A stretch of 64,000 nucleotides of DNA, from NCBI RefSeq assembly GCF_001457655.1, contig NZ_LN831035.1:1736001-1800000 (forward strand), read 5' to 3'. The DNA is from Haemophilus influenzae. GTDB taxonomy: Bacteria; Pseudomonadota; Gammaproteobacteria; Enterobacterales; Pasteurellaceae. Of this stretch, positions 10,584-15,305 are shown in pieces. The notes under the pieces are model-generated. The model saw nothing but the letters and a program-made list of their open reading frames with translations. It was not told the DNA's origin and searched no databases. How positions within the stretch are numbered: position 1 is the stretch's first letter; each line of letters opens with the position of its first letter. A program made the position numbers and the translations under genes.

Positions 10584-10693
10584 GGAAACCTTCCCAGCTT
10601 CTTCTCGGCACACAGTAATTCCGACTTTGGCTGCTTCCTTCCGGACCTGACCGAGTAAACCAGACACCGTTGCGAGAGACCGAGAAAGTTTCC
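10584..10693 (-). ncRNA. ffs: 4.5S RNA (signal recognition particle RNA)
   Basis: On the minus strand this stretch contains the diagnostic SRP RNA apical sequence GGTCAGGTCCGGAAGGAAGC, followed by CAGCCAA. The ends pair (GGAAAC at 10693-10688 with GTTTCC at 10589-10584), giving a molecule of about 110 nt folded as one long hairpin, as in E. coli 4.5S RNA. It binds Ffh to target membrane proteins. Mature ends are estimated from pairing. A small open frame on the same strand here is accidental. Confidence 0.95.
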
Positions 10694-13035: not shown

Positions 13036-13575
13036 TTATTCTTCTAAAACAACTTTACCGATATAGCCTAAATTACGATGGCGTTGCGCGTAATCGATAC
13101 CATACCCCACCACAAATTCATCAGGAATTTCAAAACCAACCCATTCAACAGGCACTTCCACTTCGCGGCGAGAAGGTTTATCAAGTAACGTACAAATTGT
13201 AAGGCTCGCAGGCTCACGTAAATTCAAAATATCACGCACTTTTTCCAAGGTATAACCCGTATCAATAATATCTTCCACAATTAAAACGTGTTTACCTTTT
13301 ATATCGCCGTCCAAATCTTTGGTAATACGAACGTCGTGATTCGTGGTCATACCTGTGCCATAACTTGAAGTTGTCATAAATTCAATTTCCACAGGTAAAT
13401 TTATCTGACGAACGATATCCGCCATAAACATAAAGGAACCACGTAAAAGCCCTACGACAACAAGGCTATCGATCTGTTTTTCTTGATAAAATTTTGTAAT
13501 TTGAGCACCTAATTCAGCAATACGCGCATGAACATCATTCTCTGAGATTAAAACATCTACGTGGTGTTTTTTCAT
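13036..13575 (-). CDS. hpt: Hypoxanthine phosphoribosyltransferase
   Basis: The 179-residue purine salvage enzyme converts hypoxanthine (and guanine) with PRPP to the nucleotide. The PRPP-binding motif [15 protein letters not shown] covers Glu101-Asp102 and the Thr/Gly loop 105-110; the flexible-loop motif SSYGTGM near 70 is also present. The start is preceded by AAGGAAA. A strong terminator hairpin lies upstream on the same strand, so it has its own promoter or is separated from upstream transcription. Confidence 0.95.
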
Positions 13576-13628
13576 TGTGTTTCCTTATGAAATGATAGGG
13601 GATAAAATCGTTTGCTATTTTACAAAAA

Positions 13629-13657
13629 AAAGGCTGAAGTTTAAACCTTCAGCCTTT
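13629..13657 (-). terminator. Terminator upstream of hpt
   Basis: An 11-bp perfect stem, AAAGGCTGAAG/CTTCAGCCTTT, with loop TTTAAAC is followed by a run of eight T on the minus strand. It is nearly identical to the terminator at 13793-13821 (one base differs). No gene ends immediately before it on this strand, so it implies an additional minus-strand transcript between the two hairpins, or is a duplicate. Confidence 0.7.
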
Positions 13658-13674: not shown

Positions 13675-13735
13675 TAGCCCACGAGTTTGTTATATCCCGC
13701 GACACCACGTTTTTAATTAGTTGTAGGGTGGGCTA
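13675..13735. repeat. REP-like inverted repeat pair
   Basis: TAGCCCAC (13675-13682) and GTGGGCTA (13728-13735) are inverted copies about 45 bp apart, each next to a CCCTAC/GTAGGG element. The right copy also forms the small hairpin GGGC-TAAA-GCCC. Elements of this style resemble REP/MITE-type dispersed palindromes. It lies between the two matching terminators. Confidence 0.5.
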
Positions 13736-13789
13736 AAGCCCAGCCTATAAACTGAAAAACTTCCTTTGGCGAATAAAAAATCAAAAAAT

Positions 13790-13887
13790 AAAAAAGACTG
13801 AAGTTTAAACCTTCAGCCTTTTTGAACCCTAACGAATTTACTTTCTACTCTACCTGTTGGAGCAACCTGCAATCGCTTAACAGATGT
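13790..13887 (-). ncRNA. Candidate Fur-regulated small RNA (possible HrrF, RyhB-like)
   Basis: A minus-strand transcript of about 95 nt is predicted from a start near 13887-13885 to the T-run of the hairpin at 13793-13821. The 5' part can form a 7-bp stem (AUCUGUU/AACAGGU) that displays a loop of about 20 nt containing GCGAUUGC and UUGCUCC. This recalls the unpaired UUGC-rich core of E. coli RyhB. A near-consensus promoter and a Fur-box-like sequence lie directly upstream. No credible open reading frame is present. H. influenzae is known to encode a Fur-controlled RNA named HrrF; identity with it is my inference from features and was not checked by alignment. Confidence 0.68.
13793..13821 (-). 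terminator. Terminator of the candidate small RNA
   Basis: The stem AAAGACTGAAG/CTTCAGCCTTT (one G-U pair in RNA) with loop TTTAAAC is followed on the minus strand by six T. It is the 3' end of the candidate small RNA. Confidence 0.8.
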
Positions 13888-13891
13888 GTGT

Positions 13892-13919
13892 ATAGTAACA
13901 GATATTTATTCATTGTCAA
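13892..13919 (-). promoter_or_regulatory. Promoter of the candidate small RNA
   Basis: On the minus strand a perfect -35 box TTGACA (13914-13919) is separated by 16 bp from TACTAT (13892-13897); ACTATA with a 17-bp spacer is an alternative -10. It is one of the best sigma-70 promoters in the window, and no protein gene follows it for 300 bp. Confidence 0.7.
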
Positions 13920-13934
13920 TAAGAATTATTCTCA
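13920..13934. promoter_or_regulatory. Fur-box-like operator
   Basis: The minus strand reads TGAGAATAATTCTTA, matching 11 of 14 positions of the 7-1-7 Fur motif TGATAATnATTATCA, with a perfect AGAAT-n-ATTCT core. It abuts the -35 box of the candidate small RNA, where Fur-Fe2+ would block RNA polymerase. Confidence 0.55.
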
Positions 13935-13949
13935 ATTTCAAAAATATTC

Positions 13950-15305
13950 TTAATTTCCTGAAATTTTCATTTTATCTAACAAAATAGAACCCGTTTGAAT
14001 GTTAGAACGATGCTCTATATCATCGGCTACAGCAACCATATTTTTCAGCATATCTTGTAGTTGCCCTGCAATGGTAATTTCAGCCACTGGATACTGAATT
14101 TCACCATTTTCCACCCAAAAACCTGATGCACCACGGGAATAATCGCCTGTAACGATATTGACACCTTGTCCCATCACATCTGTTACTAACAATCCCGTTC
14201 CCATTTGATGTAAAAGTGCGGTCAATCCTCCCGTTAAATTTGGCTTAACAAGCCAGTTGTGAATGCCTCCAGCATGCCCTGTACTTGGCATACCAAGTTT
14301 TTTACCACTGTAGCTTGTCACTAAATAAGTTTGTAATATCCCGCCTTCAACAATTTCACGATCTTGCGTACGAACACCTTCACTATCAAAAGGCGTTGAA
14401 GCCAAACGACGTAATAAATGTGGTCTCTCACTGATATTGAACCAATCTGGTAAGACCTGTTTGCCTAAATGATCGAGCAAGAAACTCGATTTTCTATATA
14501 AACTGCCACCACTTATTGCAGCGGCAAAGTGAGAAATAAGACCAGTTGCAACATCATTTAAGAAAATGACAGGCACTTCTCGTGTACTCAATTTTTGAGG
14601 ATTTAAACGAGAAACGACTTTCTTTGCACAATTTTCTCCGACCCAAATTGGCGATTGGAGTTTGTCGAATTCACGAGAAATTGTATATTCGTAATCATTT
14701 TCTAAGGCAGCTTCTACGCCACCAATAACCGAACAAGATAAAGAATAACGGCTTGATAAATAACTTTGCAACATACCGTGACTATTACCATACACTTTCA
14801 CGCCTGTATGTGAATTAAAACTTGCGCCATTACTATTTATAATACGTTCATCCGCCTCTAAAGCCGCCTTTTCAGCCTGAAGTGCAAGTTCTGTTGCTTT
14901 ATCAACATCCACATCAGCAGCATGATAAAGCTCTAAATCAGGCGCATCAAAAGCCATTAGATCTTTATCAGCCAACCCTGTGCAATCATCAGGCGAGGTG
15001 TATTTTGCAATAGCAAGTGCGGCTTCCACTGCATTTTTAATTGCGCTTTCGCTTAAATCGGAAGTCGAGGCATTGCCTTTTTGTTGCCCCATATAAACAG
15101 AAATCCCCAATGCACCATCATTAGTAAATTCTACGTTTTCAATTTCTTGCAAACGAGCAGATACAGATAAACCGCTCACTTTAGTGACCGCGACTTCTGC
15201 ACTCGCGCCAGCTTTCGTTGCTAACGCCACTGCAAAACTGACGGCTTGACGTAATTCTTGTTCTTGTGCTTTTAAAAGTGCGGTTGAATTTTCAGCTGTT
15301 TTCAT
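13950..15305 (-). CDS. pmbA: Metalloprotease PmbA/TldE
   Basis: The 451-residue protein is the TldE subunit of the TldD/TldE peptidase, with the family pattern [20 protein letters not shown] in the N-terminal domain and [16 protein letters not shown] near the C-terminus. TldD/E removes leader peptides and degrades CcdA-type antitoxins in E. coli; TldE lacks the zinc site and TldD is the catalytic half. It is divergent from darP, the same neighbour pair as in E. coli. Confidence 0.93.

Follow-up and report, generated by a model that had tools for sequence, protein, structure and literature searches.

The RNA encoded on the minus strand at positions 13790..13887 of the window (the whole stretch of DNA that was analysed, 64,000 nt of Haemophilus influenzae, here genome G000) is almost certainly the published hrrF. 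As an RNA gene, hrrF is already known, having been published in 2014, and its detection here was a correct re-discovery from raw sequence. What is new is a proposal derived from sequence comparison: the leader of mrp/apbC, a gene unnamed as a target in the discovery paper, would be the ancestral, conserved target of HrrF, with which the 26-nt core of the RNA would pair through a segment whose place in the core shifts between genera. We put the chance that this is right at about even. The features referred to below are as follows.

13950..15305, minus strand: pmbA, the upstream neighbour (NCBIfam NF008268)
13899..13939, minus strand: 41-bp region with three predicted Fur boxes according to PMC4144887, mapped from the pmbA stop at 13950
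13934-13920, minus strand: predicted Fur-like 7-1-7 site, a sequence match at 11 of 14 positions
13914..13919, minus strand: -35 element TTGACA, abutting the Fur-like site
13892..13897, minus strand: -10 element TACTAT, spacer 16, with TG preceding (extended -10)
13790..13887, minus strand: hrrF RNA, assigned from Rfam RF02728 and the published start sites
13852..13885, minus strand: 5' stem-loop of the predicted fold, with outer helix AUCUGUU/AACAGGU and a weak inner hairpin
13827..13856, minus strand: 30-nt stretch used for pairing tests, HrrF nt 32-61, containing the core GUAGAGUAGAAAGUAAAUUCGUUAGG
13791..13823, minus strand: intrinsic terminator 1, a 13-pair stem with a 7-nt loop and a T run after it
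13629..13657, minus strand: intrinsic terminator 2, where the long form HrrF-L (about 260 nt) stops
13036..13575, minus strand: hpt, the downstream neighbour (NCBIfam TIGR01203)

The covariance model of HrrF (Rfam RF02728) matched positions 13790-13905 of the minus strand over its full length (model positions 1-116) with 128.5 bits against a cut-off of 77. The flanking genes are pmbA and hpt on the same strand, a predicted Fur-like site overlaps the promoter upstream of the start, and the conserved stretch of nt 29-64 is present in the window as it is in relatives. PMC4144887 places hrrF between the same two genes, with transcription beginning 63 bp (by primer extension) or 65 bp (by 5' RACE) past the pmbA stop, and reports nt 29-64 to be 100% conserved in the strains compared. 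The earlier note called for a comparison with published HrrF; the Rfam model matches end to end, at the locus described in PMC4144887, and the note's suggestion of a Fur-regulated small RNA, possibly HrrF, is borne out by the whole-model match, the neighbours and the start sites. No evidence against this identity was found.

According to PMC4144887, the hrrF promoter region of strain 86-028NP is bound by Fur and the gene is repressed when iron is plentiful; a fur deletion raises the transcript about 80-fold, and iron chelation raises it as well. Iron scarcity yields an RNA of about 97 nt together with a weak read-through product, HrrF-L, of about 260 nt, and HrrF has a half-life of about seven minutes and does not need Hfq for its stability. 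The same study found that HrrF lowers modABC transcripts and raises those of asnA, asnC and nrdB (PMC4144887).

The promoter elements listed above lie where the earlier note had placed them, including the 16-bp spacing. With its end at 13790, the RNA is 98 nt long if it begins at 13887 (primer extension) or 96 nt if it begins at 13885 (5' RACE), both positions being A; this agrees with the transcript of about 95 nt that had been read from the sequence, as does the strong terminator (stem 13823-13791, 13 pairs). The open reading frame listing holds no minus-strand frame of at least 30 codons between 13576 and 13949, in keeping with the earlier observation that no protein gene separates promoter and terminator. 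For the 96-nt RNA, the predicted fold has an energy of -28.0 kcal/mol (z -4.0), a stability equalled by 0 of 200 shuffles.

The 41-bp Fur region starts 11 bp past the pmbA stop and contains the 11/14 site at 13934-13920. Matches of this quality occur at 15 places in the AT-rich window versus about 10 expected from 20 simulated windows (30 two-strand hits observed; simulations mean 19.5, range 8-30), so that the Fur-like site by itself is not clearly above chance. The site owes its weight to where it lies, to being conserved and to the Fur pull-down already published, and not to the match score alone. In 49 of 51 HrrF loci, TTGACA lies no more than 120 nt from the pmbA stop, the exceptions being L041 and L047.

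The segments 13790-13821 and 13626-13657, which carry the two terminators, are 97% identical, differ by one base and lie 164 bp apart. As PMC4144887 describes two hrrF terminators with a one-base difference between them, the long form HrrF-L could form in this strain too. A palindrome, GGGCTAAAGCCC, lies between the terminators and is perhaps one of the intergenic dyads mentioned in PMC4144887. Elsewhere in the window, the bacterial small SRP RNA (RF00169) was recognised at 10588-10686 on the minus strand (67.9 bits, cut-off 40).

RF02728 was matched at E<=0.001 in 97 of 140 Pasteurellaceae genomes, 62 of them over the cut-off, and in none of 14 control genomes. A survey of 394 genomes of the order gave 14 with matches over the cut-off, all of them Pasteurellaceae and none outside that family. 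Weak matches outside Pasteurellaceae (19 genomes, maximum 47.7 bits) are below the cut-off and were treated as chance; neither of the two best, G343 and G385, contains the 17-base core. The exact 26-base core occurs in 39 records of a collection of 84,980 species. Their titles name Pasteurellaceae genera throughout, with the one exception of a record titled Pseudomonas stutzeri NCTC11607 (L354), whose title is probably wrong.

Gene order is well kept: pmbA lies upstream in 49 of 50 HrrF loci, and in 44 of the 50 the flank that was fetched has hpt following on the same strand. One locus (L005) has about 950 bp of extra DNA between hrrF and hpt, whose start is 1158 bases past the pmbA stop; this DNA may be compared with the haf insertion of F3031 described in PMC4144887. 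Of the Pasteurellaceae genomes, 43 gave no Rfam match; the pmbA locus was examined in all of these but G005 (81% complete), 42 in number. A diverged HrrF follows pmbA in two of the 42, G132 (L100) and G096 (L101); within the stretch read, which ends 209 bases on in L083, the other 40 loci have neither the 17-base core nor the 14-base motif, each at up to three mismatches. A genome-wide search with the 17-base core at one mismatch was positive in 1 of the 43 (G132), and since this search misses G096, G054 and G131, it is blind to diverged copies. At the hrrF position of L055 (G013) there is a Fur-like site and TTGACA with no HrrF core after them, which could be a remnant or a replaced RNA.

HrrF is 88-168 nt long in 51 sequences, whose ends were set by rule, and its variable 5' loop is filled by inserts of differing length. 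In an alignment of 30 of the 51, the outer helix is paired in 94.1% of cells, compared with at most 51.4% when slid. One of its C-G pairs is U-A in five sequences. All 500 shuffles fell short of the alignment in cells with changes on both sides and in the covariation score, while the number of both-sides-changed pairs was reached by 122 of 500 shuffles and the number of pair types by 406 of 500. The outer helix is thus kept, and the loop is the variable part of the family. Of the 5' stem with a 20-nt loop proposed earlier, the outer helix stands, but the loop does not: in the predicted fold, an inner hairpin closes most of it.

What the family conserves is a segment of 26 nt downstream of the 5' stem-loop, and 19 of the 24 invariant columns of the 30-sequence alignment fall within nt 35-56. 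The most diverged copies (L049, L050 and L101) lie outside this alignment and retain the core only in part. Two diverged copies, L101 (G096) and L047 (G054), stand behind a Fur-like site downstream of pmbA; both keep GTAGAGTAGAAAGT, the remainder of the core being little kept or incomplete. In two genera, the variable 5' loop contains AAGTGCGGT (L043 1000-1148 and L044 1000-1134), presumably the Haemophilus DNA-uptake motif.

A search for near-perfect 14-mer complements of the core gave 40 matches in 24 genomes, of which 22 are HrrF itself and 18 lie elsewhere: 12 inside an open reading frame, five in no frame and without a start within 250 nt, and one just before a start codon. The last is that of mrp/apbC in G011 (NCBIfam NF008669), and since mrp was found by way of this match, G011 is not independent evidence. 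Of 69 genomes searched for this gene, 63 gave a match (28 of 29 plus 35 of 40). Five matched genomes went unscored for want of a fetched locus: G067, G069, G102, G013 and G096, the last bearing a diverged HrrF. Leaders from -80 to +20 were paired with the 30-nt stretch, ignoring accessibility except in the cofolding described below.

The 27 mrp leaders scored in HrrF-bearing genomes have a mean of -17.3, and 15 of them, from 11 of 23 genera, reach -17 kcal/mol or lower; 18 of 27 hold an exact complement of at least 8 nt. By comparison, the 31 leaders of HrrF-lacking genomes have a mean of -11.2, with four at or below -17 and three with such a complement. Among background genes, which are crudely called open reading frames, -17 or lower was reached by 11 of 367 in G000 and 15 of 335 in G074, and a complement of at least 8 nt was present in 18 of 367 and 17 of 335, respectively. 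Control leaders from the same genomes seldom or never reached -17 (modA 0/25, nrdB 0/19, asnC 0/24, asnA 1/26, fldA 1/24), and 0 of 500 shuffled cores attained the mean over the 27 mrp leaders. In G074 (H. parainfluenzae), the mrp leader beats all 335 sampled leaders, and the energy of mrp summed over G000 and G074 is -46.2, against -34.0 for the best of 68 ortholog pairs. Cofolding at full length was tried in six genomes, and the gain was compared with that of 60 shuffled leaders (0/60 in G074, G011, G033 and G016; 2/60 in G000; 9/60 in G087).

Published targets were examined for exact complements. No longest exact complement of the core is conserved in the leaders of modA (25 loci), nrdB (19), asnC (24) or asnA (26). 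An 11-nt exact complement, ATTTACTTTCT, lies at -77 of asnC in 3 of 24 loci (L181, L184 and L185, all of genus g1); asnA has an 11-nt match in 1 of 26 loci (L183, G097) and nrdB a 9-nt match in 2 of 19. As 10 nt are also reached, over an equal span of 260 nt, by 2 of 53 window genes, these three matches are not strong. We rejected these four published targets as the cause of core conservation, their pairing not being conserved. The leader of fldA (flavodoxin), third best in the G074 sample, was also set aside: it reaches -17 in 1 of 24 HrrF-bearing genomes, and 141 of 200 shuffled cores did as well as the real one.

These data suggest that: the conserved 26-nt core may act by base-pairing with mRNAs; the leader of mrp/apbC, which encodes an iron-sulphur cluster carrier, may be an old shared target; and the simplest consequence of pairing just upstream of the mrp ribosome-binding site would be a translational block that spares iron-sulphur assembly. 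Upon iron starvation, cluster delivery would then be shut down through an RNA that does without Hfq for its stability.

The proposal has a serious competitor. The match could be a chance one in an ancestral leader that was kept for another reason, such as the promoter or control of metG, which is divergent and adjoins mrp; we regard this as quite possible, at slightly under an even chance. As the genera are related by descent, the 15 of 27 leaders do not count as independent, and in three HrrF-lacking genomes (G125, G041 and G043) a match at -17 or lower persists. Against this, the stretch of core that is matched differs by genus (TACTTTCTACTCTA, AACGAATTTACT, CGAATTTACTT, or AATTTACT then CTACT), the distance of the match from the ATG shifts between genera, and three of the four HrrF-lacking genomes of g38 are without the mrp match. 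By eye, 8 of the 31 HrrF-lacking leaders are of the same kind (L243-L250) and the other 23 are unrelated; three of the eight are at -17 or lower. The four of g38 among these eight have lost the match in three cases, and two of the four of g14 are still at or below -17. With 23 of 31 leaders unrelated, the HrrF-lacking set is a poor control, and little weight is given to the difference in mrp z between the HrrF-bearing and HrrF-lacking sets (Mann-Whitney p 0.0004). Six genomes in which mrp was not matched (G083, G091, G111, G112, G113 and G114) are all HrrF-lacking; HrrF and this form of mrp may have been lost together in some lineages.

Pairing of HrrF with the mrp leader is also uneven within the HrrF-bearing set. 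Twelve of the 27 leaders do not reach -17, and when each leader was compared with dinucleotide shuffles of itself, no more than 5 of 100 were as good in 9 of 27 HrrF-bearing genomes and in 3 of 31 HrrF-lacking ones. For H. influenzae itself (G000), the figure is 15 of 100; 3 of 367 leaders do as well as mrp, and the predicted duplex is moderate pairing with a long unpaired gap. The RNA-seq in PMC4144887 does not include mrp among its six HrrF-affected genes, and neither "mrp" nor "apbC" occurs in the main text of that paper. A purely translational effect on mrp would escape transcript data. In Avibacterium paragallinarum (G026), the mrp leader pairs at -20.7. ApbC is listed, at 1.41, among the genes raised under iron restriction in the transcriptome of this species (PMC7970244), which, as far as that source goes, points the other way from repression of mrp. 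A literature search covering titles and the openings of abstracts gave no report of mrp or apbC as an HrrF target.

The authors of PMC4144887 described the effects on nrdB and asnA as counterintuitive or puzzling, and that on modABC as not fitting iron sparing. If true, conserved pairing with mrp/apbC would make HrrF a conventional iron-sparing RNA, and it could explain why the core is near-invariant in most of the family while no conserved pairing is seen in the leaders of the published targets tested here.

It was also considered whether the RNA is a homologue of RyhB, or acts through a RyhB-like seed (GCGAUUGC/UUGCUCC), as the earlier note had proposed for the 5' loop. The two RNAs share a regulatory logic, Fur repression and synthesis on iron starvation, and are compared in PMC4144887 itself. 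However, the 15 Rfam matches at E<=10 for window positions 13700-14000 do not include RyhB, and a blastn search of 13780-13949 against an E. coli genome collection gave no match at E<=10. The proposed loop is largely paired in the predicted fold, and its words vary among genera: TTGCTCC is present in 23 of 51 HrrF sequences (in L048 only within the terminator) and missing from 28, GATTGC is present in 25 of 51, and, L048 aside, all carriers of either word belong to genera g1, g21 and g38. The RyhB-like seed, which would sit in the variable part of the family, is not supported by this modelled fold and variation, and we consider kinship or a shared seed with RyhB very improbable. The other suggestion, that the locus holds a second Fur-regulated RNA distinct from HrrF, has a negligible chance of being right, as it found no supporting point and is refuted by position (the published pmbA-hpt locus) and family (the full Rfam match), the other two RF02728 matches in G000 (34.1 and 32.6 bits, below the cut-off) overlapping terminator 2 next door and a single HrrF copy being reported for one H. 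influenzae strain in PMC12306180.

Among known systems, the RNA described here is closest to HrrF of nontypeable strain 86-028NP (RF02728; PMC4144887), with which it shares the locus, promoter, Fur region, start-site position, length, two terminators and core; in the features compared by sequence with that published account, there is no difference. Like HrrF, RyhB of enterobacteria is a Fur-repressed RNA made on iron starvation (PMC4144887), but there is neither a covariance-model match to RyhB at E<=10 nor a blastn match in the E. coli collection, and HrrF differs in being stable without Hfq (PMC4144887). NrrF of Neisseria and PrrF of Pseudomonas are iron-responsive RNAs like HrrF, although the authors of PMC4144887 state that they found no sequence similarity between these and HrrF. 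NrrF resembles HrrF further in that its stability does not need Hfq (PMC4144887).
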